A stretch of DNA of 64,000 bases from Rugalucina vietnamica (Eukaryota > Mollusca > Bivalvia > Lucinida > Lucinidae). Location of the stretch: positions 59,323,226 through 59,387,225 of the forward strand of contig OZ024871.1 in NCBI GenBank assembly GCA_964017185.1, in the 5' to 3' direction. The translations under genes were made by a program, and so were the position numbers. Below, piece after piece: positions 11,076-52,299 of the stretch. Below the pieces are notes generated by a model that saw only the letters and a program-made list of their open reading frames with translations, was not told where the DNA came from and did no database searches. Numbering within the stretch: position 1 is the first letter of the stretch; every line of letters starts with the position of its first letter.

Positions 11076-11617
11076 AGTGCTGTTGTTTAAGTTTTTTTGT
11101 TTTTGTATAAATATAAGCAGCAATATCTTATGAGCATATTTGAGGAATTTGTTTCCATTTGAAGTATCAACACGTTAAATATGACATATTTTCTACTTAA
11201 GCGTACGTAGGGCCACACGGACCAGGTGCCAAAACGTCAACAAAATGTGACGATTTTCATATTGTGTTTTTTCCCTGTCAAACGGCACTTAAATATGTTA
11301 TAACATTAAAACATTTCGTCCTAAAACCAAATAACACTGACTTCAGTTTCAGAAAGATTCCGACTTGGCGGCAGTGTTGTTTGATTTATGTGAAAAAAAT
11401 CAGAAGCAGACCGAAAAATCTGTTTGAAATAATGGCGGAATTTGACGTCGGAGAACAGCCGACGCCGATTGTATGTTTCGTTAAGGAAATCACCCACAGA
11501 TACGATGAAAATGTTACAAACAACAGAAACGTCATCGGTCTGTCAGTTACTATTTATAGAGGAGACGGTGGGTAGGGAAATTTTGCGTTTCGCACAACAC
11601 CCTCCACATACTAGGTT

Positions 11618-12320
11618 TGATACTATGGGTGGCTTCTTTGATCAATATAAAGAGCTTCTAGGCACGTTGTCGCCCTGTGATATGGTGCATTTGTCCTCCA
11701 GAAGCCGTTACGCATGTTACCAATTCAAACCAGAAATGTGCTCTAAGTTTGTAAAATACACTATGAATCTCTAATCTGAATTCCAAACCTCAATGTATCA
11801 ATATCATCTGATGAAAGGATGTTACGGGCACATATATTGATATATTTAATCATTTTCATGCATCGATGGTGTTACGTATGTTACATTCTCAAAACAGCCT
11901 GTGTAAATGTTAATTACAGAACAGTAAGCTATTTTAATATACTTTTCTTTGCGAATTTCACTTTTAATACACTACGGGTGGCTTCGTTAATCAATATAAA
12001 GATTTTCTATGCACGTTGTCGCCAAATGGTACGGTGCATTTGCCATGCAGAAGCCGTTACGCACGTCGTATGTTACCCATTCAATGCAGAAATATACTCT
12101 AAGTTTGAAAAATGCACCATGAATCTCTAAAATAAATTCCAAACCTAAATATATTAATGTCATCTGATGAAAGAATGTTACTGGTACATGTTTTGGTACT
12201 TTTAATCACATATATGCATCGATGGTGTTACGTATGTTACATTTTCAAAGCAGACCGTTCAGAATTTAATTACAGAACAGTAAGCTATTTTAATATACTT
12301 TTCTTTGCACATTTATATTT
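11618..12320. repeat. tandem pair (~357 bp) near left end of element II
   Basis: GGGTGGCTTC at 11629 recurs about 350 bp later near 11978, each followed by TCAATATAAAGA, GCACGTTGTCGCC, GGTGCATTTG, GAAGCCGTTACGCA and TGAATCTCTAA. Each unit ends with a GTTACGTATGTTAC motif and TTTTAATATACTTTTC. Divergence between units is clear, so the duplication is old. Confidence 0.85.
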
Positions 12321-12953
12321 AAGATAACTGGTCTAAAAGACACTTATTCCTTTTCTTTTATAAACCTGAAAAAACTAATCATTATGTCATTTATAGTCGA
12401 AAGTTATTGCATATAGTCCACAGTAACTCACTTCAGATTATGAAAGAATAAAGTGTTCAAAGTCAACTATGAACAGACAAGTTTGAAGGAAAGAAGAAAA
12501 AATATACAATCATCGTGTTGTAGATCAATAACATATATGCCTTCTTTAAGTTGAATGCTCACTGCTTTGCCAGAAATGTGTACTTTTGATTGGTAAATAT
12601 AGTAACGTATGTAACACATGATTATTAAATATCAAAAATCAGTTTTAATGATTTTAATGCCGATAAAATACTCTTCGCTGTATGTAATTATGATTTAGCA
12701 CTAATTTAGAAATCATATAAGATATAGCAAATATTCAAGAGTGTAATCCGGTTGCCAGTGAACTTAAAGCGCGCACACCCAAACCACAAAATCCCAAAGC
12801 ATGTTTTACACCATTGTTAGTATCCAGTGTTATGAAATGACATTATCAACACCGTCGGTCACTATTTCTTAAGTTACATTTCACAAAGCTTGCCAATATT
12901 AGTAAGCAAATATCAATGCGGGTGACGGGCGATTTAATAGTAACGTATGTAAC
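11707..12953. promoter_or_regulatory. left subterminal motif array of element II
   Basis: Motifs close to GTWACGTATGTWAC occur at 11707-11720, 11871-11884, 12227-12240, 12602-12615 and 12940-12953. A stretched variant lies at 12056-12076. The half-site GTWAC repeats 9 bp apart, one turn of the helix less a base. This may be a binding array for a transposase supplied in trans; that is inference. Confidence 0.7.
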
Positions 12954-13279
12954 ACATTTTTCACTTAAAATTTTAGGTGTTAAAACCTTAGGAAAACAAA
13001 TGGAAATAAGACATAATAACTGTCACCTTAAACTTGTTTTCCGATTTCCGGATTATGAATTGACTCGCCGGTCATACAAAAGCACAACTCTGCGCATGCT
13101 AGTTCATTTTGTCTGGGTTCGGGGCACATGTGAGATAAGCCAAGTTCTGCTTGCGCGTGTGCCAGATGGTTTTTTTCTCGGGGTTCTCCCGTTTTCGCCC
13201 CACTTACTGGTTGGCCCGTCTCATATGAGCTGAAATAATATTGAAAGGGACGTTAAACGGAAAAAAAAATGTTCAGTCC

Positions 13280-13640
13280 TTGGTCATGAGCACTGCTTCA
13301 ATATAAGTACCATTGATGTTCCAGACATTGCCTGACGCGGTTGTTTTGTTTGATTTTGAGTTGATGCTTAACAGCATAGTCAACAGCTATTGTCATATTG
13401 AGACGTTGACTCCATTTTATGGGACTTTTGCCCGAAAATCGGGTGCCATGACATCCAAACAATACTTTAAATATAACCACCCAAGTAAGCCACTACGGCT
13501 TATACGTATGGATGGTTTGATTTTAAAACACTTTTCCTGGTCAGGCTCAGGCCTGAGCGGTTAACCAGTAATAAGATGGTCAGTAAGTAGCGTATAAGCT
13601 ATGCCTGGGGGCAAAAGAAGCCCATCTATTTCTTAAGGAC
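13280..13640. repeat. dispersed repeat R1 inside element II
   Basis: It contains CATTTTATGGGACTTTTGCC, CATGACATCCAAACAATAC, GGCTTATACGTATGGATGG and GAGCGGTTAACCAGTAAT, the R1 core. The same insertion is present in copy 2 (50150-50560), so it happened before element II was duplicated. Confidence 0.75.
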
Positions 13641-15140
13641 CCGATGAGCGGGGCCCATATTCCCATCCGACCAACTTTCTGAGGGATTCTGCTTAGGCTG
13701 ATACGGTTGAGCGTTTCTGCTAAGGCTGAAAACATGTTTTTGAAGTTTTCACGTTATAAATGTGTCATCAAACGATCATGCTTTGGTGGTACATTTTCAT
13801 TTGTGTAGCGCTAATGGCAACAGAACAAGTGACGGACACTATTTACACTTGAACCAGATTGCTCAGCAGATGAACAGAATCGGCAAATGGTTTTTCGTAC
13901 ACCTTCTTATGTGCTGTGGGGGTCGTTATCGTCTGTTCGCACAAGGTAGTTTGTGATTGATCGCTTTTCTCAGCAACATTCCAAGCATTCCAAGTCTCAC
14001 CTAAACTGCCATATTGTGTAATCATATAACTTCTATTTTCTTGAAGATATGGAATAGTCGAGAGTCTCACCAGGACATCAGTACTTGCTCAAAACGACAG
14101 ACTGCTAGTATCGTGCTTTTTCAGGATTTCCAGCGTGGAACCATAATGTATTGCAATTATTTGGCTACAATAGACAGCAGCATAAAACCAAGACATCTAA
14201 TTCAGATGATTGTACCGTCAGAAGCATCGTGGTTGATATGAAAATTCGCGTATCTGTGTCTTAATCGTCTAAAGTGCAGTTACGTGAACCCTGGCAAGAA
14301 AGCAGTTTCGTTATCTGTAAAAACGCATACACGTTGTTTGCACATCTTGTTCTATGTTCGGATTTCATACCGAGGGCCTTAAGAAATTCACATTTTGTGT
14401 AATTACTGCTTAACATTGGATTTTGCCACTCCCAGGGAACTGGTGTTGCAGGGCTAGTTAATGTCCTTCTTTATCGGGCATCCAATCTAATGGATTTAAA
14501 GTGCAGATTATATTTTTAGTTCGGTCCTTTGAGATCAGTAAAGATATCCAGAGTGTTCAAAACACTCACGTTTAGAAACATACTTCTAAGCAATTTTTCA
14601 ATTATTTGACCCAATTTAGGAATATGTCTTTGATTTAGACTCCTCGTGTAATTCTCGAAATTGCAGCACAATTATAGTCTGACCTTCGTTGCCGGTTTAA
14701 AAAGGGCTACTGAAGAGGGTTCATTACCCGAAATTGCGCAATATAGTCCATAATATCTCCCTTTGAATGTTTTTGCTGCTTCCAATTTATTAACTCTACA
14801 TGTATATATCAAACACTACCTCAAATCAATAGTTTCGAAAGGCGCACACAAGCTGTGAGGAATACCACATATAGAATAAAATAAATGAGTCCAGGAGTTT
14901 GAGGATAATATCCGCACATAGTTGGATGCGACCGTCAGTGTGATATTTGCGATGTCTTTGTCTTCCTAAGTCATTAAGTTCGCACATGTGAAAGATTCAT
15001 CGTGGATCGTGGATCTTGTTCAAGGACACAACATGGCACCGAAGAGGTCGAACAACACAAACTCGCAATCAGGAGCAGACGCTTTTACGATGGGTCACCA
15101 AGTCATAATATATACCTTACAGTGCCCTACATGAAAAATG
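13641..15140. other. interior of element II, no gene recognised
   Basis: The frames at 13762-13956, 13843-14070 and 14014-14241 are intact in both copies of element II, but they are short, overlap on opposite strands and show no domain or signal I recognise. Their preservation is explained by the recency of the copy, not by selection. Confidence 0.45.
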
Positions 15141-15141
15141 T

Positions 15142-16046
15142 GTTACATACGTTACCATGAGCATACTGACAAGTCACCAGTGGGTCAACATATTCCAAAC
15201 ACCTTACTGTGTTCTATGCGAAAACAATTGCAGATAATTATGTGAGACCACTTTCATGTGAGCCGCAGCGCGCGAAATCCCTCTTCCGACAATATTCCTT
15301 CTACACAGTAATACGCTCGTAGAATTTAGACGCTTGAAATTTCGGATTTAAGAAGAAGTTTAAATTATCTGTGTAGAGTAAACAAGTGTGCTGATCAGCT
15401 GTGCAGTAACTGCATCTTTGTTTTCATATAGGAAGAATCTGGTTTTCGCATGAAGCGGCTCACTATATATACATTTATATTCACCAAAATGAAATCTACC
15501 CAATGTTTGAAATTTAAGGTGTTACATACGTTACCATGATCATACTTGCAAGTCACAGGCTGTGTATTTTAGCACACTAAACATGTATTTATCAAAGAAT
15601 AGAACTAAATAATTTACACAAACATATAACAGTTATTCATTTTGGTATTTTTGTTGAAACGCCTACTTTTCAAATGTTACAGCATACGGCGGTACCCTTA
15701 GGAAATGTTAAATTATTTAAAATAAACATATGATTTTGTGAAATAGCCAAGTTGAACTACTGGTCAATAAGAAATGACCTATCGTTTTTGGAATATGAAG
15801 AAAGAAATGCCAAAAACAAAAACGTTTTTGAACCCAAACCCCTATTTTCACGCCATAGATGTAGAAGTAACGTTTGTAACACCGTATACTGTCTAATTTC
15901 AACTTTTAAAGATCATAAAGCATGTCCGTTAAATTGTTCTAGCACCTGATATAATTAGTGTTGTTGCATGATTAAAGTGGATGGAGCATAGTAGGTTTCG
16001 CTATTTTGTTGGTACAAATATATTTTGAACATGTAACTTATGTAAC
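15142..16046. promoter_or_regulatory. right subterminal motif array of element II
   Basis: Motifs lie at 15142-15155 and 15521-15534 (GTTACATACGTTAC, the complement of the left-hand form) and, more weakly, at 15867-15880 and 16033-16046. Spacing is 170-380 bp. The opposite orientation from most left-hand copies fits an inverted terminal architecture. Confidence 0.65.
15258..15463. mobile_element. R3-like MITE inside element II
   Basis: It is bounded by GTGAGCCGC and its complement GCGGCTCAC, with inner arms TGCAGTAACTGCA, CTGATCAGC and TTTGTTTTC resembling family R3. It is present at the matching place in copy 2 (48356-48561). Confidence 0.7.
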
Positions 16047-16205
16047 GAGCTACAGAAATATTGTGCACCACTTGCCGGGGCGACAACGTGCCTAGAACTC
16101 ATCTAGGATGACCAATGGACCAATTGCATACTGCAAACAAAGTATGTGGAGGGTGTTGTGCGATTTCGTTAAATACGGTAGATACAGAATCTAGCGTCTC
16201 GCCTA

Positions 16206-16519
16206 GAGGCTTTGTTCAGCGATCAGTATATCCATCTCCTCCTATTTGGTTTTGTTTGGTCTGGTTTGTTGTATGACCTCCATGTCAACGTTTGACACGA
16301 AGTAGAGAAATTTTTGCAAAGGTTAATGTGCAAACCCCTCCCCACGAAACGCATTTTTATGGCAATCTAGAAGTCTTTTTGATTATCAAAATGGTTGTTC
16401 GCGATTGTCGCTAATACGGCGCGGCAATGCATTGATGGACAGTTCTGAAAAGGGTGACCGCGTGGGAATATGGGCTCCATGAAAAATAAGAGATTTGCTT
16501 GTACATACAGGCAAAGCTT
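16206..16519. other. unassigned flank of element II
   Basis: No feature was recognised. Its first three bases, GAG, match the CTC beside copy 2 (52259-52261) after inversion, suggesting this is one side of the original insertion site of the other copy. Confidence 0.5.
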
Positions 16520-17020
16520 ATCACTACTGACTGATCATCTGATTACTGGTTAACCGCTCATAAGGTCTGAGCCTTTCTAGGAAAAGTGTTTCAAGTCAAG
16601 TCAAACCATCAGTGCATATAAGCCTTAGTCATTTACTTGGATGGTTGTATTGTCGAGCATATTTTGGATATAATGACATCCTTATGTAGGCGTAAAAGAG
16701 CAATCCATCATGAAGAAAAATAATCTGTGAAGCTGAAAGAAAGTGCATAGAGCGCAAAGCCAGAGTAAATGGGTCATCGCCAATTTCTTCAACATTGACT
16801 TGCTGTTATTGAAACCGATAGTTTAGAGCTAAAATAGGCATAGTCAGCCATAAAAAGAATTCATCGACACACATAAACAATCTTACGATCAAGAAATATA
16901 GGTATTTCTCACTAGTGAGAGACGAACAAACATGTTTGGCTTAAGTCCCATGAAAGGAGGAAACTTCCCAACATGACCATAGCTGCTGACTAGGGAGCAA
17001 AGCCACAAATCAAACAGATC
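16520..17020. repeat. dispersed repeat R1, split by a LINE fragment
   Basis: R1 reads from CTGATTACTGGTTAACCGCT through TGATGGATTG-region sequence, is broken at about 16712, and resumes at about 16928 with TTTGGCTTAAGTCCCATGAAA and CATGACCATAGCTGCTGAC. Confidence 0.7.
16712..16927 (+). pseudogene. 5'-truncated LINE 3' end
   Basis: This matches the reverse complement of the last coding part and 3' tail of the LINE at 22845-26151. Shared blocks include AATCTGTGAAGCTGAAAGAA, GAGCGCAAAGCCA, ACATTGACTTGCT, AGTTTAGAGC, TAGTCAGCCAT and the terminal TTTCTCACTAGTGAGAGACG. It is decayed, with indels that break the reading frame. Because it was inserted into R1, its ends show where the LINE 3' end lies (GAGAGACGAAC). 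The 5' truncation is typical of target-primed reverse transcription. Confidence 0.85.
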
Positions 17021-17534
17021 AGTCCTGGAAATTTTCCGCACGGAAGACTGCAAGCCAAAATCAAAAATACGTTATATGCGAAGACACCACGATAACTATG
17101 CCTGTCCACATCTACAGTCACTGATTGCTGCTACAAGATGATATCGGTAGAAAAAATATCTCCATACTGAAGAAAATGTTTCAAATTTTAAAGCTTTCGA
17201 GTACCAGACTGTGAAAACAATTGCTTGATGTACTGATGGATACCAAATTTCAGGGGTACATCCAAGCATTTTTCCACAATACAGTCCTGAACTTCTGGAT
17301 ATTTTTTTTTTTTTTTTTTTGTTTTGTTTTGTTTTTTGTTTTAGCCTTTTTTTTTGTCAACCAATATGTGCAATAATGCTGAGTTCCCCGTTTTGTTTTC
17401 ATTTGAAAGGGATGAAGAATGATGCTTTGACATTTACTCTTGAGTAATGCATAACTGTATCGCCATTTTTGCATTTTGTAGTAGGTATTCCAACTATTCT
17501 GATTCCGCTTATTGCCACAAAGAAACATTTAAGT

Positions 17535-17567
<33 letters not shown>

Positions 17568-17950
17568 TTTTTTGTAAAGTTACGAAAGATAAACGTCCGA
17601 ACTCAATTGTGACGGTGACCACAACCCATTTCTAACCCACCCATTTTTGTACACAGGTACCAGATGATGGAAATCCTACCTTCAACCTCCCACCCAAACC
17701 CTGTTGTACCCCACCTATCTCTAAATGTATCCATAAATAAAGGGGATAAGCATTTTTCCACCTTATATATAGATTTGGTGTCCAACAGAAAATGTCCCAT
17801 CTGATCAGACTGGTGAAACGTCAAATTGACAATACCACACCAGGATGGTCGGTGAATAGAAGCGCATCAATGTCAAAAGCAGAGAATTTTAGAATTTTAA
17901 AAAGAGATCCGTGGACAATTCTAAAATAGAAGCGGAATGTATTATGTAAA
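17021..17950. other. unassigned, with two poly-T tracts
   Basis: Poly-T runs lie at about 17302-17341 and 17537-17564. No coding region was recognised; the lysine-rich frame at 17250-17528 (minus) is the complement of the T tract. Confidence 0.45.
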
Positions 17951-18110
17951 GGTAAACGTAATGAGAAAGTGATTCCCACTCCAAAAACCAAGGTGGTAAA
18001 AAACTAAATTAACAATCAGGTACTTATGAAAACATAACGTAAGCCGAATGAGCAGCTATTTTCCAAAGAGGTGGCCACTCAGTTGCCTAAATTAAAGTGA
18101 ATTGAATTAA
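17951..18110. repeat. dispersed repeat R2 fragment
   Basis: It shares TTCCCACTCCAAAAACC, AAACTAAATTAACAATCAGG, CGTAAGCCGAATGAGCAGCT and GGTGGCCACTCAGTT with 52340-52480. Confidence 0.7.
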
Positions 18111-19207
18111 AAAAATGAAAACGTACATAAGGTGCATACAGCACAAATATTCAACGCCGTGACAGTCATTTTACGTAAAATCGCACTTGTACTGCCTTGC
18201 GGTGTTGAAAAGTGTTGGTTTAGCAGGCAAAAGGACGTGGTTCGAGCGAGCCTCAGTCTGAGCAAAAGATGATAAACCAGTAACACTTCAACATATCACA
18301 CTATCCCAACCCACCCTTCCTTACCCTACCCTAACCTACTCCAGGGCTGTGTGGTAGCCTAGTAGTAGAGCAACAGGTCCTGGATGTAAAACATATCTCA
18401 AATGTTGTCAATGTCGTGTCCTTAAGCAAGACATTTTAAGCTCCTTATATTCCTAATTAATAATTGGAAAATGTTGCCACTATCACAACGTGACTGAAAA
18501 AATGTTGACTTGAACATCAAGCCATGACCAAACCGAACCGAATCTACAACATTTCCACACTATTACCGTTTGCCCTTCCTACTATACCACTATTTAATCC
18601 AACTGCACCGACCTCTACTATAGTATCTACACATACCCAACAGTTTTGAAACGCCACACCATGTGACTGCCTTACCACATGCCATCCATATCTTGCCCTA
18701 TCCTATCCTACCACATCTCACCCTATTCTACCATATGTCTGCCTGCTTACTATATCCATACATTTTAAATCTTCAGGCTTAAAAATGTAGGAAACAGTTA
18801 TATGAATTTCCAGCATCGTGTTTATAGACAATGCTTAAATGCAAATTGATATTGGTCAGTAAATAATGGATGTAAAATTCTAAAATTAAACATAAATTCT
18901 CCTATCCAAATGTAGACGGACATCAACTGTTTACTCAAATACACTAAATGTACCTGGTTTTCGATAGCCATCTAGGATTTTGGCAGCCATTTTGAATTTG
19001 TTTATTTTCTTTTATTGCATATTGGTGAAATGTCTAGGCTTTAAGTATACCTACTTTAAATGTCATCCTATAATACATGTATATGTAAGAATTTCTATCA
19101 AACCCCTTTAAGTCGTCCATCTAGAATTTTGGCGGCCATCTTGAATTTGATGGCCATCTTGAATTGCTCGAGGATTTCATATCAGGATACTCATATGTAG
19201 TTATGTC
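18111..19207. other. low-complexity spacer
   Basis: 18290-18740 is pyrimidine-rich with many CCTACC/CCTATC runs. 18960-19165 has three copies of an ATTTTGGCNGCCAT, CTTGAATT pattern also seen in element IV. No gene was recognised. The last six bases, TATGTC (19202-19207), match those after element V. Confidence 0.45.
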
Positions 19208-20452
19208 TATGGAACGCCTTTACTGCCTCCGGATGTCTGAGTTCCTTATGTTGTAGGGACATATCTTTATGTTGTGTGGACCTATCGTTATGTTGTATTG
19301 AACTTTCTTTACGTTGTGTGGAACTGTCTTAATGTTGTGTGGACCTATCTTTATGTTGTGTGGAACCATCTTTATGTTGTGGGCAACGATCTTTATGTTG
19401 TGGGCAACTGTCTTTATGCTGTGTGGACCTATCCTTAGGCTCTGTAGAACTAGCTTTATATTCCATAGACATGTCTGTTTGTTGTGTGGAACTGTCTTTA
19501 TGATGTGTGGAACTGTCTTTATGATGTGTGGAACTGTCTTTATGATGTGTGAAACTGTCTTTATATTATGTAGAACTATCTTTGTTGTGTGGTGCTATCT
19601 TTATGTTCTATGGACCTGTCTTTATGTTCTATGGACCTGTCTTTATGTTCTGTGGACCTATCTTTATGTTCATGGACCTGTCTTTATGTTCTGTGGACCA
19701 GTCTTTATATTGTGTGGAACCGCTTTTATGTTTTGTAGTATTGTCTTTATGTTGTGTGGAACTGTCTTTATGTTGTGAGAACCTACCATTATACCATGTG
19801 CTTTCATCATTATGATGGATACAGTTAATATTATGTTATGAATATACACCATTACGTCACAGGCAATTCTAACATGTGCTTTATCGATGATGTTATATTA
19901 TGTATAGATACTATTTTATCATTTGTCATTGTGTCCTGTTATATAATCATTATACTGGATGCTATTGCCATTATAGTATGTGGAACTGTCTTTATGTTGT
20001 GTGACACTGTCTTAATGTTGTGTAAAACTGCCTTTATGTTGTGCGGGACTGTCTTTAAGTGGTGTTGAATTGAACTTATGTTGTATAGAGCTGTCTTTTT
20101 GTTGTGTGCAACTGTCTTTAATGTTGAATAGCATTTATGTTGTATAGAACTGTCTTTATGTTGTGTGCAACTGTCTATTTTTGTGTGCAACTGTCTTTTT
20201 GTTGTGTGCAACTGTCTTCATGTTTTGTGCAACTGTCTTTATGTTATGTGCAACTGTCATTATATTGTAAGGACTTATTGATTGTTTTTCGTAGTATCAC
20301 TGTTTACCGGAACGCACCACATTTTATCGGAATCCGGGATGTTTCACCCCAAACCATTTCCTCCCCTAGTTGTTTCGTCCCCAAGACGTTTCCTCCCTAG
20401 TCTTCCCCCTAGTCGTTTCGCCCCACTTGTCGTTTCGCCACCTAGTATATGT
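19208..20452. repeat. left inverted arm, 21-bp minisatellite
   Basis: About 45 degenerate units of a 21-bp repeat (core CTTTATGTTGTGTGGAACTG) fill 19250-20275, interrupted near 19780-19980 by a unit-poor stretch. The inner end (20276-20452) matches the inner end of the right arm. Because 21 is a multiple of three, stop-free frames run through the array; these are not genes. Confidence 0.85.
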
Positions 20453-20829
20453 GAGAGGGGGGATGGGCATATATTGAGATAGGGATGGGCCATGGGGCTT
20501 GTGCATCAGGAAAACATGTCCATGAAATGTATACCCCATTAAACCCCACTTTTATACAGTAAAACTGGGATATGCAGGGGTATACCTATTTTTCTTATTT
20601 TTGCTCCAAAACATAGATTAAGGGTACTCGTTTCGCCCCCAAGACATTTCCCCTAAAACAGACGTGTAGCTGATAATTCAATTACCGTTCTGGTAACCTG
20701 ACAGACGTTTTCACGCCTTTTATTCAGTTAAAGGGAACAATCACAAGATCTAAATATTTACACGATTTCCAATTCACGGTATTATTTCTTTCTTCTTCTC
20801 TCGTTTAATTTACATTTATATCATTCTTA
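20453..20829. other. interior spacer of element V
   Basis: No coding or RNA feature was recognised. The stretch includes another TTTCGCCCCCAAGACATTTC block near 20628, a relic of the arm's inner sequence. Confidence 0.4.
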
Positions 20830-22250
20830 TTTAACCAGAGGACCAATGGTCCTGATATCGCTCACCTGAGATTTTGTCTTTGATGAATGACCTTTGGCTA
20901 AGGCCATGTTGGCCGACGTAAATGTAAACTTTACCTCAAATACTCACATAATTATTAAAACTATAATCCGTCTGTATCTATTAACTTTCAGATCTTTCTG
21001 GCAATATTTGACCTTTCTGTTTAATTTAATAGGTCAAGGTCAACCCAAGGTCATGATTTATATAAACCACGAAGGGCCAGAGCCCCCAATGGTACATTGA
21101 ATCCAGAGAAGTTGATTTTTAAAGGATTTTACCACATATATGGGCATGACGGCCATCTTGGTCATGTGACCTAGACCACTTATATATAAACTTTGGTTCC
21201 CCCTTCCTAAGGATACCACATATAAAATTTGGTTTTGATTGGTGAAGTGTTTCTGAGAAAATTCAGTTTTAAATTTAATATGTAAATGACCTTTGGCCAA
21301 TGTCAAGAGATGACCTTGACCTTGAATACTCATAGGATTTCATTAACTCAATAACTTGTATGTATGTACCAACTTTCAGGTCACAGGCCACAAAACGTCC
21401 TGAAAAATCCAAATGCTTTCCATTTTTTTCCTTTGAGAAGCCTATGTGACCAATGTTGACCTTGCCATTAAGTAGGTCAATGTCAACCCAAGGTCATGAG
21501 TTATACAAACAATGATGGAACAGAGTCCCCGATGATACATACCAAGTTTTATTGAAATCGGTCCAGCAGTTCTAGAGAAGAAGATTGTTTAAGGTTTTTA
21601 CCATATATGGGCATGGCAGCCATCTTGGTCATGTAACCTGGACCATTTATATAAACTTTGATTTCTCCTTCCTAAGGATATCACATATAAAATTTGGCTT
21701 CGATTGGTGAAATTGTTCCTGAGAAAAGTAAGTTTTAAATCTAATATGTAAATGACCTTTGACCAAGGTCAAGAGATGACCTTGACCTTGAATACTCCTA
21801 TGACTTCATGAACTCAATAAGTTGTATGTATGTACCAACTTTCAGGTTACCCGAAAAATCCAATGTTTTCACTTTTTTTCCATTTCAAAGCCTATTTGTA
21901 CAAAGTTTACCTTGCCGTAAAATAGGTCAAGGTCACCCTAAGGTCATGGCTTATACAAACTATGATGGGCCAGAGTCCCCAATGCTACATACCAAGTTTC
22001 AATGAAATCGGTCCACCGGTTCCAGAGAAGTTTTTACCATATATGGGCATGGCGGTCATCTTGGGAATGTGATCTTGACATTTATACAAACTTTAGTTCC
22101 CCCTACCTAAGGATGCTCCACATGAAGTTTGGCATTGAATGGACCAGGGATTTCAGAGGAGAAAATCTTTGAAAAGTGTGAACAACGACGACGACAACAG
22201 CGGACGACGGAGCATGGCCATCCTATAAGCTCACCTTTTGAGATGAGCTA
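20830..22250. repeat. three tandem units of ~445 bp, GGTCAAGGTCA-rich
   Basis: GGTCAAGGTCAACCCAAGGTC near 21032, its counterpart near 21477 and another near 21925 mark units about 445 bp apart. Each unit carries TGGGCATG, GCCATCTTGGTCATGTGA, CCTTCCTAAGGAT, GACCTTGACCTTGAATACTC and TATGTATGTACCAACTTTCAG. The block ends with a GACGACGACAACAGCGGACG run and GAGATGAGCTAAAA. Repeats of this style are common in bivalve genomes, from general knowledge. Confidence 0.75.
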
Positions 22251-22844
22251 AAATATAACAAGAAAGAAAAACGAAATATTTGACGAGATATTTGATATTT
22301 CACTGTGTGCTTGACACTTTGTAACAGAGATAATGCCAGTCAAAAGTTTTGAACAATGCTTCTGTCAGTAACATTTTGTGTAAAACTGAAACCAACACTC
22401 TATGTAGCAAATGCTAACCTGTTATGCCTGTTGAGAAGAGTAAAGAGCTTTAACAATCATCACCATGGTCTTATTACAAAAATAAATAAATAAATAAATA
22501 AATAAAAAAAAAAAAAAAAACAAATAAAAACATCTGCTTGACAGATTATGTTACGCCCGACCCCCTTGATCTCCCAAGCCCTACATGCGAATTTAAATGA
22601 CTAAAATTGTACAATCTGCTTCATATTTGATAAATAATGCGCTTTAATGTTATTCAATACCACTAAGCACCACCTTTACGTCTTTTTTGTGCCGTTGTGC
22701 ACTTTTTTACGCATCTTTACATCACTTTGCGCTACTTTACTGTATTTAGTTGTATCATTGTTTTTGTCTTTACATGCCGTATAATGGTGTAAAATTAAGT
22801 AATTATATTATATGTATATGCATTCTTCCCTTTCATATATGATA
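22251..22844. other. unassigned, with (AATA)n/poly-A
   Basis: An (AAAT)n tract running into poly-A lies at about 22481-22520. Nothing else was recognised before the LINE 3' end. Confidence 0.4.
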
Positions 22845-22875
22845 GTTCGTCTCTCACTAATGAGAAAGACCATCA

Positions 22876-26151: not shown

Positions 26152-26529
26152 TTAACCAGCCAGGGGGTTTGAAGCAGGCAATTGTTTAGGGCACCTTTTC
26201 TAGCCCCTTCCCCATGCTACGGGGGTGAGCAGTGCGGTCCTAAATAGGTCTGCTCAGTCGCTCAGCCGACTGCCGAATTCTGCTTACTGCTTCTCCTCAC
26301 AGAAAACGACCATTAGAACTGAGCCGCCTGTGTGCAGGTCTGCAACTACAGCTCCCAGTGTGTCCTACACCTGCTGCTTCGCCACTCGCCCATCGCCACA
26401 GGACTTTGTAGGTATGTGGGTGCAAGTGTGATGAAATTGTTGTGTATGCAAGTGCTTGTGTGTTGAGAAATAAGATGACATGCGCTTTGAAATTGGATTA
26501 TAGTGAGGAAGAGGTGCGCAACGTCAACC

Positions 26530-27017: not shown

Positions 27018-27058
27018 GCAGTTAAACTGACCTGACCTGAGTTAAACTGACCTGACCT
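27018..27058. repeat. two tandem 22-bp units
   Basis: AGTTAAACTGACCTGACC occurs twice in direct succession between the LINE 5' region and the right arm of element V. Confidence 0.7.
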
Positions 27059-36800: not shown

Positions 36801-36904
36801 ATCAGCAGTGTATTTAGCTTTACCTGGAGGCACAAGTAGCCTATATCTATTTCTTTAGGCCCCAATGGGAGGGGGGGCCTCTATGGTAAAATAAGCAGTC
36901 ACAA

Positions 36905-38345: not shown

Positions 38346-38754
38346 ATCACATCTCAACTATAAGGGGTTAGTGCCGGACAGCCCAAAAGTACTAATTATT
38401 GTGTACTCAACAATTATCATAAAGACGATGAACAAAAAGTGGTGTTTCAACATGACCACCATAGTGCCTTAAGACTTACTAAAAGAAATAATCTAAAACA
38501 TCAATTCAAACACACAGAAAATGTATAGCGATTAAGCGTTTTGCGTTCATATGCACAAAATACACCCGGGTGCAAAAGAACCGTGACCCGGGTTCAATTT
38601 CAATTTGCTCCACCTCGAAAGTAGGGGCAAATTTGCAACCGGGTGTATTTTTTTTCACTGGATTTACTTTCTTAGAACACCGTTCTTATAGCATAAAATA
38701 CGTACACCGGATGCAAATTTACACCCGGGGTGCAAAAATACACCAGGTGAAAAT
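38346..38754. other. spacer with CACCCGGGTGCA repeats
   Basis: TACACCCGGGTGCAAAAG at about 38561, AACCGGGTGTATTTTTT at about 38638 and TTACACCCGGGGTGCAAAAA at about 38719 form a group of direct and inverted short repeats. No gene was recognised. Confidence 0.55.
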
Positions 38755-41280: not shown

Positions 41281-42739
41281 GTTGCTTTAGATTAGTCTAA
41301 CCAATTTCGTATTTGCTTCGGCATGTATTCATGACATTCGTAACGGATTCGTGGTTCATTCGTAGTTGGGTGACAACCTCCGGAATTCCCGAAAGAGTTA
41401 CGAATACATCCCAATAAAATAAGATCCAGTTACGATGTCACGGAATGAACTACGACTTCGTTACGAATTAACTGCGACTTTGGGGTCGAAAATTCCTGAC
41501 CAAAATTTTGAACAGTTTGGCCACGAATTTCTGACTGACCAACAAACGGCAAGATCTTACTACGAACTGTAAGAATTAGTTAAGATCTTCACGAATCGAT
41601 TACTTTTCAGCTACGAATTCAAAAATTTTGTAAATTCGTGACTATTCGTGTGTCGTTTTGTCGTAGTCTGATAGGGGGCATTATGAATAAAATTGAAATG
41701 TGAAGTCATTTTGTGACATTAGAAAGTAGTTCGAATGCAGTAATAAGCGCGTCTAGCCCAGCACCCGGGGATACACAGGTTCACCACCGGATTCAACGAT
41801 TTTTCTGTCACATGAGGGAAACGAGGAAAATGTCGTGCAATGCGGTAAATGTGAAATTTCACTTTAGATACATTTTATTGTTGTGAAACAAAACTGTGCT
41901 AGTTGACTGAAAATCGCTACAGCCGGTGTAATTTGATAGACGGTGAAAAATGTAAAAGCAACGGCAGCGATAAGGAAGTGGCGCAATCAGAACAAAAATC
42001 CCAATCCAAAAACTGAGGTGAAAACAAAACTAAAAGGGTTTTAGAAATTACTATGTTTCTTAACTCGTTTTAGCAGTCACACATTTAATAGCGTGTGACT
42101 GAGGCGTGTGCCGGATGAATAAAAATCTCAGTAGGCTGAACATTTTGGTGTTCAGTCGTTTGTGTTACGTCACAGACACGCTACGCATGCGCTATAGGCG
42201 TGCACATGCGCTATAGGCGTGCATCAACGCATGTCTCATACACGCTTGGGACACGTTACTGAAGCAATATCTTGTAAAATCGGAACGTACATGTACACAT
42301 GTAGCGTACACTGGCGTGCATAAAACGTGCACCAAACATGCTCAAAGCGTATTCAACGCACCTATAACGTGCGTGGAACCTTGTCAAAACGTATAAGACA
42401 CACGTTCGAGACACGTCAAGCTTCTAGAAAATATTTGAGCATGCTTACAAATCTTTTGAGCCCAAACGTAACTGTGCTCCTGACGTATGTTGGATTTTAC
42501 GTTTTTGTCAACACCCCAAAGCGCGTTTGGCTTATACGCTAATGTATGACTGCTATTTAAAATAATATTCGGTTACTAATGCAAAGAGGACAACTGGTAA
42601 GCCGAGCAGGCAACTATTTCCCAATATGAAACAAAGCAAAATGTCATTCCTTAAAAAATGATTAGACCTGAGTTACACCCCTACATCATTTTCCTTACTA
42701 TTATGCAACGTTACATTGGCAAACGCTTTGTGATTGTCT

Positions 42740-42775
<36 letters not shown>

Positions 42776-43838
42776 GCACGCACGCACGCACGCGCGCGCG
42801 CGCGCTCGTGCGTGCGTGCGCACTGTTTGCATAATTTTTGTATTCTCTCTATAATTGATCATAATCGTTCCAAACTGTGACCTTTTAATAATCAGGATAT
42901 GCTTAAAACAAACATATAGCCGTAAATTCGCCAAGACAATAGTCGTAAATTATCTATCGCGGTCAATTTGGTGGCCGTAATGTCACCAAGACATAGTCCA
43001 CAAGTAACATATACTTGTCCAAAATTTGGGGGCTGCTAAAAAGGAAATATTCTTCCGAAAAATGCCGATTTTTTTTTCTTCAGAAAATGATTACATTCTA
43101 GAACAATGTTTCTCACAAATGTTTGTGAATATAATTTTTTTCCAGAATTCCATGAGAAGGCAATTTAACATATTTCTATAAAGTTCATATTAGATCTACA
43201 CGAAACATATTTGTCTGAAGTTGCAAACAAAATGCATGATCACTATCTTGCACTATACAATTTTTATGGAATAGATGTCTGGAAAAGCTAGACCAAACAC
43301 TTTCAGTTCAACCCAGTCCAGCTGCAACCTTCAAATAGCGTAAAGGAACACATACGATTTGTAAATTATCAATGACTTAGTTCGAAATTCTCCAGGACGT
43401 AGCCGTAAAGGCAATTGACCGATAGCCGTTAATTATCGCCTCCCATATATACCTTGTTAACCGGGTGTGATTTTGGCATCATTATAAAGGAGAAATGTAG
43501 CCCTTTTAATCAAGGTATAATACAGCAACCTATCATGTTTATTAACAAAGTTATAACAGCTATGACAGAACTTTCTGACCTACCCTCGTACCCGTTGGAC
43601 CATGTATTGCCCATGGAAATTGTATTACCTCGACCAGTCCAGGAATAATGAGCTGGACCGGAAGGCTATTCCTTGGAGTATGAAATAGCACTCAGTCAAC
43701 ACTAACAATAAACAAGAAGACAAGAAGGTACAAGTAGGCAAAGATCAGGAAAAGGCGCAATCAGAAAAAAAGATTTCCACTCCAAAAACCGAGATGGGGA
43801 AAAAACTAAATTAACAACCATGAAAACATATCGTAAGC
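41281..43838. repeat. 2.5-kb tandem duplication, second copy
   Basis: Direct repeat of 38755-41278, ending at the same TCGTAAGC before continuing into the rest of an R2 repeat, so the right breakpoint lies inside R2. Confidence 0.95.
42742..42822. repeat. (CA)n(CGCA)n(CG)n(TGCG)n microsatellite
   Basis: Expanded version of 40215-40258 with an alternating purine-pyrimidine CG core and inverted GCAC/GTGC ends, able in principle to form Z-DNA or a hairpin. Confidence 0.95.
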
Positions 43839-44440
43839 TATTTCCCAATAGGTGGCCACTCAGTTACCTAAACTTAACTGAAAATATGAAAACATACATA
43901 AGGCGCCAACTGCACAAAAATTTTAAACACCAAGACATAAAACGAAAGAACCACCACAGAAGTATCTCCTTGGAACGATCAGTAATAAAATTACTGGCGG
44001 GCTCAAATCGATTTTACAGGTACCTAACCTCACCCCCAGCTTCTGCAGTGGTTCATAACATTTAGTTAGGTCTTCGGTCCTCGTGGTGAATCTCTAACTA
44101 GTCAATGAATCATCAAAAATAAACAGATAAATCATGATAAACATCATGATGAATCAAAAACGAGGACTCACAGATTGAGTAAGCTGCCCGACGATGGAGA
44201 TCCCTTGGCGCCGAATAACTTACTAACTCCGGAGATAAAGAAAAACACCAGTTAGACCCCGGTGGGCCAAGCAACAGACAAGAAGCTCCGGCCCAAACCA
44301 ACTAAAGTGAATAGCTTTAAGTCGGGGCCATCATAGAGTCTGACGCCCACCGGCGTTCAATTAAAGAAGGCAGCATAGTTATCAACCATGATTGGATTAA
44401 AAACTGAGCATGCAGACCATCGCATAACATTCAAGTTATA
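43720..44440. repeat. dispersed repeat R2, longest collinear copy
   Basis: Runs GATCAGGAAAAGGCGCAATC, GGTGGCCACTCAGTTACCTA, ACCACCACAGAAGTATC, CTTCTGCAGTGGTTCATAAC, GTAAGCTGCCCGACGATGG, CCGGTGGGCCAAGCAACAG and GTCTGACGCCC without rearrangement. It serves as the reference order for the rearranged copy at 52300-53440. Frames through it are broken. Confidence 0.75.
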
Positions 44441-44552
44441 ACCTATACGTCTGTAACGTGTAATGATTTTTCTGAACTGAAAAGAAAAATCATACCTTCC
44501 TATAAGTTTCTTAAATTTGTAAACCAAGTCACCATAAAATTCTGGTTCCGAA

Positions 44553-45382
44553 ATATGGAACGCCTTAACTGTCTTATGTTAAGAACTGTCATTATATGCT
44601 GTTGAAATATATTATCATAGTGTTCGTTTGTCATCCCATCTTGTCCGCTAAGCATTCAACATGTTATCATGTCAACTTTACAGCTTGTTAGGTTAGATCA
44701 TCATTTTATTGAGTTAATATATAATGTTGTTATGTCTACTCATTATTTTGTTGGCTTCGGGTCTCGTGTTGTCTTGTCATTTTGTCGTTTTGTTAGCTTC
44801 ATATATTATCTTATTTGGTCAATTTATCATTTACTTCATTTGATATGGCATATTATCTTGTTCATTTCTATGTAGTCTGGTTAATACTGCGTTCTATTGG
44901 CTCCAAAGATCATAAAACTCTTCTTTGTCCCCGTTGAAAATGTTGTCTTTTCATATCATGATTCTGGTGGGTTTATATATTCTGTTGTTATGTCAACTTA
45001 TTGTTCTGATTGGTTGTTTTGCCATATCATTTTGTTCTTGTTTTATTATGATGGTTTAAAGTGTGATTCTGTTTGGTGAAGTTACAACGCACCTGCTTAA
45101 GATGACTTTATGTTCGCTTCGTTGATAATACTCGCAATTCAAATAACCGAGATGTTATCTCTTTTGTCCAATTGCAATTCTGTATGATACATCTTTTGCA
45201 TTGTTTATTCGTTTCATCAGATTATTGTCTTTATTTGATACTTTGTTTTGGCAATTTATCGTTTTGTTGCCTCTATAGGACACGTTGTCCTGTCAACTTT
45301 ATAATAATGTTGTTGTGTAAAGATTACATCATGTTCATTTTACATGTTGTTGAAAATATGTCACCAAAAAACGATAATAAAT
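44553..45382. repeat. decayed T/G-rich repeat beside an element V-like end
   Basis: TATGGAACGCCTTAACTGTC at about 44553 resembles the element V terminus and minisatellite. CTGTTGAAATATATT follows at about 44600, as it does after element V. From about 44640 to 45370 weakly repeated blocks such as TTGTTATGTCAACTTATTGT and TTGTCATTTTGTCGTTTTG follow. It is probably the remains of an old related element. Confidence 0.4.
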
Positions 45383-46318
45383 AGAGGATATTCAAGTTTT
45401 TGGAGTGAATATGAGTTTTATTTCATTGAGTGAAGTGAAAATTTTTTATATTTCATGAGTGCCGAAGGCACGAATGAAATATATAATCTTTCAATTCACG
45501 AGATGAAATAAAAGTCATATTCACGACAAAAACTTGAATTTTCTTTTTATTATATTGCATGTAGTCATTGTAACGTTGCGCGCTAAAGCATATGACGTCA
45601 AAATCTTAAATGACGTCATTACGTCACATCATTACGTCGCTATTGTGTGTGAACGTTCATTGCGTCAACAATACTGATAGCATAGATTATAAAATTTAGT
45701 TATGTATATTAGAAATGAAACGGTGGAATCGTAATTTGCGTATTCCCAATTATTTTATACTTTACAGTGAAACCCAATGCATATCAAAACTTGATAAAAT
45801 TGGTATTTTCATTGATATGAAATTTCACTGATATCAAATCTCACTGATATCAAAAGTCACTAGTGACTGATATCAGCCTATATCGTCACTGTAATGACGT
45901 CAGATTTTTTGGATTACTTCTGACGTTTCCATTTACTTGACGTCATGAAATGTGCCTCACTTCAGAAATTCAAACGCCTATAACTCCGTTATTTATTAAG
46001 GAAAACATAAAGTGTGGGTATTCATTTTCTTAGTTAGAACGTAAGGAACAATGTGGTACCAAAATTATTTGTGTTTTCAAAAATTTTTGGTTTTTGCATT
46101 TATACCGCCTACCTTGTGAATTGGAAAATGCCCGTGTATTGTATAAAATAAAAAGAAAATTTGCTTTTTTTTTCGGTCAATACCAAATATATTTCATCTC
46201 GTGAGTTGAAAACATAATAATTTTCACTCGTGCTGCGCACTCGTGAAAATTCTGATGTTTTCAACTCACTCGATGAAATATATTTGGTATTCACCTCAAA
46301 AAAGCAAATATCCTCTAT
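45383..46318. mobile_element. R4 element with a hairpin at each end
   Basis: The left terminal hairpin (about 45385-45545) folds on GTGCCGAAGGCAC; the right one (about 46150-46312) folds on a GTGC-TGCGCAC tip. Both ends read AGAGGATATT inward. The interior carries several TGACGTCA/TTACGTCA motifs (45594-45645, 45893-45950). Related copies are 58047-58160 plus 61488-61875 (split by element IV), 62515-62955 and 35985-36322. No protein is encoded. The class is not identified. Confidence 0.7.
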
Positions 46319-46445
46319 ATCTTATATTTTCACATGTGAAAATATAACTTTTTTATATTTTCACATGTGAAAATATAACTTTTTCAAATATTGGTTATAT
46401 TTAATACATATTTCTCTATATTTCATCACTTGCCATATAATAAAA
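46319..46445. repeat. paired 26-bp palindromes
   Basis: Two adjacent copies of a perfect 26-bp palindrome centred on TTTTCACATGTGAAAA are followed by AATATTGGTTATATTTAATAC and CATCACTTGCCATATAATA. The same block, inverted, is at 58047-58160 and 62515-62640. Confidence 0.85.
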
Positions 46446-46544
46446 GCCGGTATTTCACTTCGTTCACTTCGGTCTATGACAATTTTTGGAGACGCATGAG
46501 AGAGTATCAGCTTCTTACAGGTGGCAAAATTTAATTTAAGAAAT

Positions 46545-46700
46545 AGATCAGCTCTAGCAGTGAATTGTTGAGTAATAATTCACTGTTTGGAGGTCAGTTG
46601 TAAAGAAGATCAAATCACGACGCGCGAGTGATTTATCTTCTTACAACTGACCGATAAACAGTGAATTATTACTCAACAATTCACGCACTTGAGCTGATCT
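46545..46700. repeat. 156-bp hairpin
   Basis: AGATCAGCTC and GAATTGTTGAGTAATAATTC pair with the complementary arms at about 46655-46700; the inner arms GGTCAGTTGTAA, GAAGAT pair around a GACGCGCGA tip. Probably a MITE of the same general style as R4 and R6. Confidence 0.8.
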
Positions 46701-47613
46701 GTTTCGATTCTAACACACAATAAACGGAATAAATGTTGCTGAAACCGTCGATATCGTTCAGCTTTCCGCCATTGCATTGCATATATCCCGCCAAATATTT
46801 GACTGTAATGCTGGTATTTACACACACTTATTACGTTTGTTGTGCGCTAAACGACGTTTCACCGTCTAACGCTGCTTTGTGGGATAGCTGACGTCACAAA
46901 TGCCGCAAAGTAACGTCACGCTTATTCGCCCAGTGAAATTGTTGCACAATATAACACGTTTTTTACCATTGGCTATATAGGCGAGGTGTGTTAGAATTAA
47001 CAAGAAAAGATATGACACAAGTGTCATATCAATAGCTTCAATTTTCTATCGCAGTCAATAACGTATAAGACAAAGCGCGCACCGAGCGTGTGGAAAAATA
47101 TGCCGCAAATTCAACTAATGTATTTCCATAGACATACATACGTGGTTTGTCAGAAAAGTTCGTGTATACCATTTATATTTTCAACAGAAAAATGAATATA
47201 TCTGCTTTTGCAAAAGTATTTTATAAGCAAATATACAAGAAATTTTATTGAAATCTGACAAAAACACGTCATCTACAGCCTTTTCCCTGCACTTCCGAAC
47301 CGAGTGCGGGGCAAAGGTCAACGTCTCTATATGACGTTACTTGACATTTTAAGCCGCCAGCACGTTATACATTTGTTTCAGGGTGTTTTTTTTTAAACAA
47401 AAGATCCTTGGCTATCAACATTTTTATGTCTGTGTATCCAGCTGTCAAATGCAGATACGCCGTACCAATTCTCGCAAAATTGTTCGTCCACCTGTTGAAC
47501 ATGTGTAACAATTTCTTGCGGCGAGCATGCCAGACAGGTGATCTTCCGTTTATCATCATAGGTGGACTTCTGAGCAGCTGAAAATCGTCTGTGCCACAAC
47601 TACCGAGAACTAA
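46701..47613. other. flank of element II copy 2, paralogous to segment B
   Basis: 46999-47613 is the reverse complement of 37672-38345 at high identity, ending at TAA (47611-47613), the complement of the TTA empty site. Its frame at 47365-47559 matches the frame at 37732-37947 for this reason. 46701-46998 is unassigned. Confidence 0.8.
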
Positions 47614-48355
47614 TAGGCGAGACGCTAGATTCTGTATCTACCGTATTTAACGAAATCGCACAACACCCTCCACATACTTTGTTTGCAGTATGCAATTGGT
47701 CCATTGGTCATCCTAGATGAGTTCTAGGCACGTTGTCGCCCCGGCAAGTGGTGCACAATATTTCTGTAGCTCGTTACATAAGTTACATGTTCAAAATATA
47801 TTTGTACCAACAAAATAGCGAAACCTACTATGCTCCATCCACTTTAATCATGCAACAACACTAATTATATCAGGTGCTAGAACAATTTAACGGACATGCT
47901 TTATGATCTTTAAAAGTTGAAATTAGACATTATACGGTGTTACAAACGTTACTTCTACATCTATGGCGTGAAAATAGGGGTTTGGGTTCAAAAACGTTTT
48001 TGTTTTTGGCATTTCTTTCTTCATATTCCAAAAACGATAGGTCCTTTCTTATTGACCAGTAGTTCAACTTGGCTATTTCACAAAATCATATGTTTATTTT
48101 AAATAATTTAACATTTCCTAAGGGTACCGCCGTATGCTGTAACATTTGAAAAGTAGGCGTTTCAACAAAAATACCAAAATGAATAACTGTTATATGTTTG
48201 TGTAAATTATTTAGTTCTATTCTTTGATAAATACATGTTTAGTGTGCTAAAATACACAGCCTGTGACTTGCAAGTATGATCATGGTAACGTATGTAACAC
48301 CTTAAATTTCAAACATTGGGTAGATTTCATTTTGGTGAATATAAATGTATATATA

Positions 48356-48561
48356 GTGAGCCGCTTCATGCGAAAACCAGATTCTTCCTATATGAAAACA
48401 AAGATGCAGTTACTGCACAGCTGATCAGCACACTTGTTTACTCTACACAGATAATTTAAACTTCTTCTTAAATCCGAAATTTCAAGCGTCTAAATTCTAC
48501 GAGCGTATTACTGTGTAGAAGGAATATTGTCGGAAGAGGGATTTCGCGCGCTGCGGCTCAC
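48356..48561. mobile_element. R3-like MITE in element II copy 2
   Basis: Mirror of 15258-15463, bounded by GTGAGCCGC and GCGGCTCAC. Confidence 0.7.
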
Positions 48562-50149
48562 ATGAAAGTGGTCTCACATAATTATCTGCAATTGTTTTCG
48601 CATAGAACACAGTAAGGTGTTTGGAATATGTTGACCCACTGGTGACTTGTCAGTATGCTCATGGTAACGTATGTAACACATTTTTCCTGTAGGGCACTGT
48701 AAGGTATATATTATGACTTGGTGACCCATCGTAAAAGCGTCTGCTCCTGATTGCGAGTTTGTGTTGTTCGACCTCTTCGGTGCCATGTTGTGTCCTTGAA
48801 CAAGATCCACGATCCACGATGAATCTTTCACATGTGCGAACTTAATGACTTAGGAAGACAAAGACATCGCAAATATCACACTGACGGTCGCATCCAACTA
48901 TGTGCGGATATTATCCTCAAACTCCTGGACTCATTTATTTTATTCTATATGTGGTATTCCTCACAGCTTGTGTGCGCCTTTCGAAACTATTGATTTGAGG
49001 TAGTGTTTGATATATACATGTAGAGTTAATAAATTGGAAGCAGCAAAAACATTCAAAGGGAGATATTATGGACTATATTGCGCAATTTCGGGTAATGAAC
49101 CCTCTTCAGTAGCCCTTTTTAAACCGGCAACGAAGGTCAGACTATAATTGTGCTGCAATTTCGAGAATTACACGAGGAGTCTAAATCAAAGACATATTCC
49201 TAAATTGGGTCAAATAATTGAAAAATTGCTTAGAAGTATGTTTCTAAACGTGAGTGTTTTGAACACTCTGGATATCTTTACTGATCTCAAAGGACCGAAC
49301 TAAAAATATAATCTGCACTTTAAATCCATTAGATTGGATGCCCGATAAAGAAGGACATTAACTAGCCCTGCAACACCAGTTCCCTGGGAGTGGCAAAATC
49401 CAATGTTAAGCAGTAATTACACAAAATGTGAATTTCTTAAGGCCCTCGGTATGAAATCCGAACATAGAACAAGATGTGCAAACAACGTGTATGCGTTTTT
49501 ACAGATAACGAAACTGCTTTCTTGCCAGGGTTCACGTAACTGCACTTTAGACGATTAAGACACAGATACGCGAATTTTCATATCAACCACGATGCTTCTG
49601 ACGGTACAATCATCTGAATTAGATGTCTTGGTTTTATGCTGCTGTCTATTGTAGCCAAATAATTGCAATACATTATGGTTCCACGCTGGAAATCCTGAAA
49701 AAGCACGATACTAGCAGTCTGTCGTTTTGAGCAAGTACTGATGTCCTGGTGAGACTCTCGACTATTCCATATCTTCAAGAAAATAGAAGTTATATGATTA
49801 CACAATATGGCAGTTTAGGTGAGACTTGGAATGCTTGGAATGTTGCTGAGAAAAGCGATCAATCACAAACTACCTTGTGCGAACAGACGATAACGACCCC
49901 CACAGCACATAAGAAGGTGTACGAAAAACCATTTGCCGATTCTGTTCATCTGCTGAGCAATCTGGTTCAAGTGTAAATAGTGTCCGTCACTTGTTCTGTT
50001 GCCATTAGCGCTACACAAATGAAAATGTACCACCAAAGCATGATCGTTTGATGACACATTTATAACGTGAAAACTTCAAAAACATGTTTTCAGCCTTAGC
50101 AGAAACGCTCAACCGTATCAGCCTAAGCAGAATCCCTCAGAAAGTTGGT

Positions 50150-50560
50150 CGGATGGGAATATGGGCCCCGCTCATCGGGTCCTTAAGAAATAGATGGGCT
50201 TCTTTTGCCCCCAGGCATAGCTTATACGCTACTTACTGACCATCTTATTACTGGTTAACCGCTCAGGCCTGAGCCTGACCAGGAAAAGTGTTTTAAAATC
50301 AAACCATCCATACGTATAAGCCGTAGTGGCTTACTTGGGTGGTTATATTTAAAGTATTGTTTGGATGTCATGGCACCCGATTTTCGGGCAAAAGTCCCAT
50401 AAAATGGAGTCAACGTCTCAATATGACAATAGCTGTTGACTATGCTGTTAAGCATCAACTCAAAATCAAACAAAACAACCGCGTCAGGCAATGTCTGGAA
50501 CATCAATGGTACTTGAAGCAGTGCTCATGACCAAGGACTGAACATTTTTTTTTTCCGTTT
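50150..50560. repeat. dispersed repeat R1 in element II copy 2
   Basis: Mirror of 13280-13640, with TTACTGGTTAACCGCTCAGG and CCATCCATACGTATAAGCC. Confidence 0.75.
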
Positions 50561-52299
50561 AACGTCCCTTTCAATATTATTTCAGCTCATATGAGACGGG
50601 CCAACCAGTAAGTGGGGCGAAAACGGGAGAACCCCGAGAAAAAAACCATCTGGCACACGCGCAAGCAGAACTTGGCTTATCTCACATGTGCCCCGAACCC
50701 AGACAAAATGAACTAGCATGCGCAGAGTTGTGCTTTTGTATGACCGGCGAGTCAATTCATAATCCGGAAATCGGAAAACAAGTTTAAGGTGACAGTTATT
50801 ATGTCTTATTTCCATTTGTTTTCCTAAGGTTTTAACACCTAAAATTTTAAGTGAAAAATGTGTTACATACGTTACTATTAAATCGCCCGTCACCCGCATT
50901 GATATTTGCTTACTAATATTGGCAAGCTTTGTGAAATGTAACTTAAGAAATAGTGACCGACGGTGTTGATAATGTCATTTCATAACACTGGATACTAACA
51001 ATGGTGTAAAACATGCTTTGGGATTTTGTGGTTTGGGTGTGCGCGCTTTAAGTTCACTGGCAACCGGATTACACTCTTGAATATTTGCTATATCTTATAT
51101 GATTTCTAAATTAGTGCTAAATCATAATTACATACAGCGAAGAGTATTTTATCGGCATTAAAATCATTAAAACTGATTTTTGATATTTAATAATCATGTG
51201 TTACATACGTTACTATATTTACCAATCAAAGGTACACATTTCTGGCAAAGCAGTGAGCATTCAACTTAAAGAAGGCATATATGTTATTGATCTACAACAC
51301 GATGATTGTATATTTTTTCTTCTTTCCTTCAAACTTGTCTGTTCATAGTTGACTTTGAACACTTTATTCTTTCATAATCTGAAGTGAGTTACTGTGGACT
51401 ATATGCAATAACTTTCGACTATAAATGACATAATGATTAGTTTTTTCAGGTTTATAAAAGAAAAGGAATAAGTGTCTTTTAGACCAGTTATCTTAAATAT
51501 AAATGTGCAAAGAAAAGTATATTAAAATAGCTTACTGTTCTGTAATTAAATTCTGAACGGTCTGCTTTGAAAATGTAACATACGTAACACCATCGATGCA
51601 TATATGTGATTAAAAGTACCAAAACATGTACCAGTAACATTCTTTCATCAGATGACATTAATATATTTAGGTTTGGAATTTATTTTAGAGATTCATGGTG
51701 CATTTTTCAAACTTAGAGTATATTTCTGCATTGAATGGGTAACATACGACGTGCGTAACGGCTTCTGCATGGCAAATGCACCGTACCATTTGGCGACAAC
51801 GTGCATAGAAAATCTTTATATTGATTAACAAAGCCACCCGTAGTGTATTAAAAGTGAAATTCGCAAAGAAAAGTATATTAAAATAGCTTACTGTTCTGTA
51901 ATTAACATTTACACAGGCTGTTTTGAGAATGTAACATACGTAACACCATCGATGCATGAAAATGATTAAATATATCAATATATGTGCCCGTAACATCCTT
52001 TCATCAGATGATATTGATACATTGAGGTTTGGAATTCAGATTAGAGATTCATAGTGTATTTTACAAACTTAGAGCACATTTCTGGTTTGAATTGGTAACA
52101 TGCGTAACGGCTTCTGGAGGACAAATGCACCATATCACAGGGCGACAACGTGCCTAGAAGCTCTTTATATTGATCAAAGAAGCCACCCATAGTATCAAAC
52201 CTAGTATGTGGAGGGTGTTGTGCGAAACGCAAAATTTCCCTACCCACCGTCTCCTCTACTCATGTTATTTTCACTCTGTGACACTCATTTACACAAAAA

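Follow-up and report, generated by a model that had tools for sequence, protein, structure and literature searches.

In Drosophila buzzatii, the transposon Galileo made inversion 2z3, and the Galileo copies concerned are chimeric (PMC2775673). The relevant portion of that paper states that hybrid-element insertion gives a result strikingly similar to that of ectopic recombination, and that chimeric copies tell the two apart; it is the same-site hybrid form that is said there to have this resemblance (PMC2775673). For maize Ac/Ds, the pertinent sections of another study describe alternative transposition, in which ends from two copies yield inversions flanked by inverted copies, and distinguish reversed-ends, hybrid-element and sister-chromatid types, with P elements cited alongside Ac/Ds (PMC8225341). 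Here we describe a stretch of 64,000 nucleotides from the bivalve Rugalucina vietnamica (the window; contig OZ024871.1, referred to as C3, positions C3:59323226-59387225) in which two copies of a DNA transposon, element II, carry target duplications that have been exchanged between them across a 31,408-bp segment. The assembly searched comprises 1,089,854,562 bases in 47 contigs. The mechanism is already known, and the locus is an unusually clear, new example of it; a literature search on swapped duplications with non-allelic recombination found nothing.

Galileo 2z3 is the closest documented parallel found. As described for 2z3 in the parts of the paper that treat it, inverted copies of a DNA transposon lie at the breakpoints with exchanged target duplications, and non-inverted sequence carries a single target copy with neither deletion nor duplication (PMC2775673). 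The duplications at 2z3 are 7 bp long and those here 3 bp, the empty sites at 2z3 come from real non-inverted chromosomes whereas those here are paralogs in one assembly, and the segment here is 31 kb (PMC2775673). Alternative transposition with copies at separate sites produces inversion together with deletions or duplications, unlike the arrangement seen here (PMC2775673). That arrangement is made up of the following features.

11557..16205, + strand: element II copy 1, a DNA transposon with TAGRSGAGACG inverted ends
47614..52258, - strand: element II copy 2, inverted relative to copy 1
11554..11556, + strand: TTA, left half of the TTA target duplication
47611..47613, - strand: TTA (TAA on the + strand), right half of the TTA duplication, now 36 kb away and inverted
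16206..16208, + strand: GAG, one half of the GAG target duplication
52259..52261, - strand: GAG (CTC on the + strand), other half of the GAG duplication
16206..47613, no strand: inverted segment of 31,408 bp, recognized from the swapped duplications and from uninterrupted paralogs

The junctions of copy 1 read TTA, TAGAGGAGACG...CGTCTCGCCTA, GAG, and those of copy 2, in the orientation of the element, read GAG, TAGAGGAGACG...CGTCTCGCCTA, TTA. When 16206-47613 is reversed in silico, the copies are flanked by TTA/TTA and CTC/CTC on the + strand. The first-pass annotation had claimed such a swap, and its coordinates and trinucleotides proved exact on re-reading of the sequence. Its description of the copies as inverted and nearly identical likewise holds, as they lie on opposite strands and are 99.76% identical over 4.65 kb, with 5 substitutions and 2 indels between them. 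The ends that it had assigned to element II are also correct, since the same 11-bp ends, with at most one substitution, are present at the other copies seen. Both the sequence facts just given and the inverted order within the assembly are firm.

At the TTA breakpoint, a single young Helentron-like repeat lies parted in two, with one half forming the left flank of copy 1 and the other the flank of copy 2 at 47613, and a further copy of this repeat within the window retains the empty site.

9138..11556, + strand: left part of the interrupted Helentron-like repeat
46995..47613, - strand: right part of the interrupted Helentron-like repeat, outer end uncertain by about 3 bases
34568..38346, + strand: further copy of the Helentron-like repeat, uninterrupted at TTA (empty site)

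A 400-base join of the two flanks around a single TTA was matched at every one of the 40 places scored in the genome, over the full 400 bases at 39 of them and over 398 at one, and 14 are identical. Within the window, 36690-38149 covers the junction that forms when the left flank of copy 1 is joined to the reverse complement of 47134-47610, also with a single TTA, and 97.3% and 98.3% of the ungapped columns on the two sides agree with the joined flanks. Both window halves stop near the repeat's own terminus; elsewhere, the whole repeat is seen in L049, which also carries a further 775 bp peculiar to it. Subterminal inverted repeats are present (ATAGCTTCAA / TTGAAGCTAT in L049, from which the left end in the window differs by one change), as is a hairpin near the 3' end (z = -4.40, folded in L049 alone), and no target duplication was seen when the ends of three copies were compared. 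Because Helentrons and HINEs, as portrayed in the applicable part of PMC4067079, likewise have subterminal inverted repeats, a 3' hairpin and no target duplication, the interrupted repeat fits this type. One mobile repeat was thus split by element II, with its halves now about 36 kb apart and inverted.

At the GAG breakpoint, the outer arm of the original site lies beyond copy 2.

52259..53968, + strand: outer arm of the GAG site; this arm is duplicated along with 16206-28658 at C3:77.49 Mb, where element II is absent

When the other two flanks are joined over 400 bases around one GAG, the joined sequence agrees at 400 of 400 bases with C3:77490779-77491178, a place 18 Mb distant. The order at that place corresponds to window positions 53968-52259, 16206-18803, 18799-19208 and 28017-28658, which follow one another consecutively, without element II and collinear on both sides of the single GAG, with 19 mismatches (gaps aside) over five alignments totalling about 5.4 kb. 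This paralog is without the window's 19209-28016 and has a 3.8-kb insertion of its own. With 28659-31000 as the query, no match near C3:77.48 Mb was found among the matches listed, and hence the end of the duplication probably lies near 28658. The C3 copy may be a true segmental duplication or a displaced second haplotype, and under both readings it displays the uninterrupted order. On C13, a second and older paralog (L053) carries 53687-53449 reversed (87.9% identity) and then, 7 bases on, 16206-16479 (91.6%), in the same order as on C3 and also without element II. The flank beginning at 16206 is found in three places (the window, C3:77.49 Mb and C13), and at both places outside the window it is preceded by the outer arm of the GAG site and not by the Helentron-like repeat. 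The C13 paralog strengthens the GAG side and does not bear on the choice of mechanism. It is also without a repeat of about 1.2 kb that corresponds to window 52262-53448. This repeat, absent at C13:12661300-12661900, is dispersed and partly palindromic and ends a few bases from the GAG target, so that the insertion of element II fell almost at the margin of another repeat.

Independent uninterrupted paralogs at each breakpoint thus support the inverted order, relative to the original sites, that the first-pass annotation had proposed. Judged by these paralogs, the flanks at both sites were joined in this way before insertion, and the assembled order differs from the original one by exactly this inversion. 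Because of them, the case stands without reliance on the 3-bp matches. At the joins, no bases have been lost or gained beyond the 3-bp duplications.

The target duplications were also examined across the family. Of 1148 candidates in the search with the left end of the element, 40 were scored, namely, the 2 window copies and 38 others, and the family may therefore be larger. All 38 non-window copies were fetched, and both termini were visible in 33; for the other five (L017, L028, L034, L035 and L040), the right end was not visible within the fetched stretch. Matching target duplications flank 33 of these 33 two-ended copies, 32 of them perfect and 3 bp long. The remaining one, L020, has a 4-bp duplication, TGTC. 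Among the 32 copies with a 3-bp duplication, TTA is a preferred target (10 copies), GAG was not used, and its complement, CTC, was used once. It might be proposed that two unrelated insertions have lost or mutated their duplications, or that the termini were wrongly placed, and that the swapped trinucleotides match by coincidence. The preference for TTA makes TTA/TTA by itself weak evidence; the product of the TTA and GAG frequencies in the window is 1.9e-4, and a looser estimate, the chance of two swapped pairs matching given the targets that the family itself prefers, is 0.009. Against coincidence, all 33 control copies keep their duplications, and both swapped joins are found uninterrupted elsewhere in the assembly, which together exclude a chance trinucleotide match, while wrong termini are excluded by the near-identical 11-bp ends that bound the copies seen. 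We therefore regard this explanation as exceedingly improbable. In an all-against-all comparison of 250-bp flanks, matches between copies were at most 160 bp long, with 75 to 100% identity, and lay in dispersed repeats; L025 resembles L040 in its left flank (about 80%), and short matches on opposite strands link L012 with L014 on both sides. The two window copies are not connected by any of the flank matches, and flanks related by duplication were rejected on this ground.

With regard to its class, element II is a DNA transposon, and no coding capacity was found in the part of it that was scanned. A Pfam profile scan of 10 of its 15 open reading frames (ORFs) of at least 60 amino acids found nothing above the cut-off, with one weak match below it, and no transposase was found in the 10 scanned ORFs. 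PIF/Harbinger transposons make a 3-bp TWA target duplication. Element II does not conform to this pattern, as TTA or TAA accounts for 13 of the 32 duplications and other trinucleotides account for 19. CACTA/EnSpm transposons make a 3-bp duplication and have CACT- termini; the duplication of element II fits, but its termini are TAGRSGAGACG.

The relationships among the copies bear on when and how the inversion arose. A third copy, L009, lies 307 kb away and has a normal TTA/TTA duplication. At 65 sites, copies 1 and 2 and L009 each depart from what most of 16 other aligned copies carry, and the three have in common a 295-bp insertion that is found in 0 of these 16. The full core of this insertion is present only in L009 among the 38 other copies, with partial versions of 90 bases in L046 and 45 bases in L026. 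Private substitutions number 2 in copy 1, 3 in copy 2 (one of which is also found in L012) and 5 in L009, and none joins any pair; such a star is as expected of separate insertions. On this sequence evidence, the three copies are young relatives from one burst, and the inversion would be younger. For comparison, the C3 paralog of the GAG site is about 0.35% divergent, and copies 1 and 2 are about 0.1% apart. Within the set of 40 scored copies, 6 pairs of neighbours are no more than 350 kb apart, compared with a mean of 0.49 and a maximum of 5 in 2000 random placements. This excess of close pairs suggests that element II hops locally, which would supply nearby inverted pairs. Clusters of element II were seen at C3:59.03-59.38 Mb, C15:32.09-32.23 Mb, C1:44.2-44.5 Mb and C6:5.74-5.83 Mb.

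The same data bear on hybrid-element insertion, a possibility that the first-pass annotation did not name, in which the ends of two sister copies of one element II would have transposed together into a nearby site in one step, producing the inversion, the two copies and the exchanged duplications at once. Such a course needs one event rather than three and agrees with the apparently usual choice of nearby targets, and the same exchanged duplications are what it leaves, according to the section of the Galileo paper concerned (PMC2775673). However, copies 1 and 2 have no common variant that is missing in L009 and hence are not visibly sisters, an argument that is itself weak, since a recent burst would look the same. 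In our judgment, it is possible but rather doubtful that the second copy and the inversion both arose from one hybrid-element transposition in a locally hopping and recently active family.

The likeliest cause is ectopic recombination between the inverted copies, to which we assign a probability of roughly 0.58. According to this reading, two copies of element II would have entered the chromosome some 31 kb from each other and in opposite orientation, one at a TTA in the Helentron-like repeat and the other at a GAG in a different sequence. Homologous recombination between them would then have flipped the intervening 31,408 bp, exchanging one half of each target duplication and parting the halves of the Helentron-like repeat. 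Being inverted, 4.65 kb long and 99.76% identical, the copies are a good substrate for such recombination. Ectopic recombination predicts exchanged duplications, neither loss nor gain of bases, and single targets in uninterrupted sequence, all as found: homologous copies lie inverted at the breakpoints, their duplications are exchanged in a family that otherwise keeps them, and each uninterrupted site, here a paralogous site in the one assembly, has a single target copy without loss or gain. We infer that the two insertions came before the flip, that homologous recombination brought the flip about and that it is present in the organism and not in the assembly alone.

Several points weigh against this reading. 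Whereas the Galileo copies at 2z3 were shown to be chimeric in the portion of the work that deals with them (PMC2775673), copies 1 and 2 have too few variants for a chimeric pattern to be demonstrable. The five private differences of copy 2 (3 substitutions and 2 indels) all lie to the left of the two of copy 1, and this split could be explained by a crossover lying between positions 3576 and 4219 of the element; such a split would, however, arise by chance with a probability of about 0.1 (2 of 21 orderings), and the crossover implies parents with 0 and 7 mutations, which is an odd division. In addition, no non-inverted chromosome with both insertions was seen in the one assembly. A flip made during assembly, the alternative that the first-pass annotation itself had raised, would have a sequence outcome identical to that of recombination: the organism would have TTA[II]TTA and CTC[II]CTC in the original order, and the 4.65-kb inverted repeat would have been traversed wrongly. 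Assembly flips do occur at near-identical inverted repeats. On the other hand, the window contains no N and hence shows no scaffold gap at either copy, and the division of 1.09 Gb into 47 contigs points to long reads, for which 4.65 kb should be no obstacle. An assembly flip seems unlikely, slightly less probable than hybrid-element insertion.

Two further parts of the inverted segment may be mentioned. The 8.8 kb at 19209-28016 has inverted ends of about 24 bp and arrays of a 21-bp unit near both ends, and within it, at 22876-26067 on the - strand, lies an intact ORF of 1063 amino acids for an endonuclease/reverse transcriptase; the whole is perhaps a DNA element with a nested long interspersed nuclear element. 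The reverse transcriptase ORF has 1707 protein matches, and the 120 listed are all from one frog species, at 65% identity. A tandem duplication of about 2.5 kb occupies 38755-43838, with 38755-40257 and 41281-42783 being 99.2% identical and 40253-41278 and 42819-43838 being 98.3% identical.

In summary, exchanged target duplications are direct evidence of an inversion made by a transposon, and the order that preceded the event can be read here from one assembly alone, since paralogs preserve each of the target sites in uninterrupted form. The approach of listing the copies of a family, looking for mismatched duplications and then looking for uninterrupted swapped joins is usable on other assemblies, where it could count such inversions or catch assembly flips. 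If hybrid-element transposition were the true course, the family would keep making small polymorphic inversions throughout this genome wherever nearby hops in opposite orientation occur. The inversion, if real, is young, given how little its two copies differ, and may still be polymorphic.

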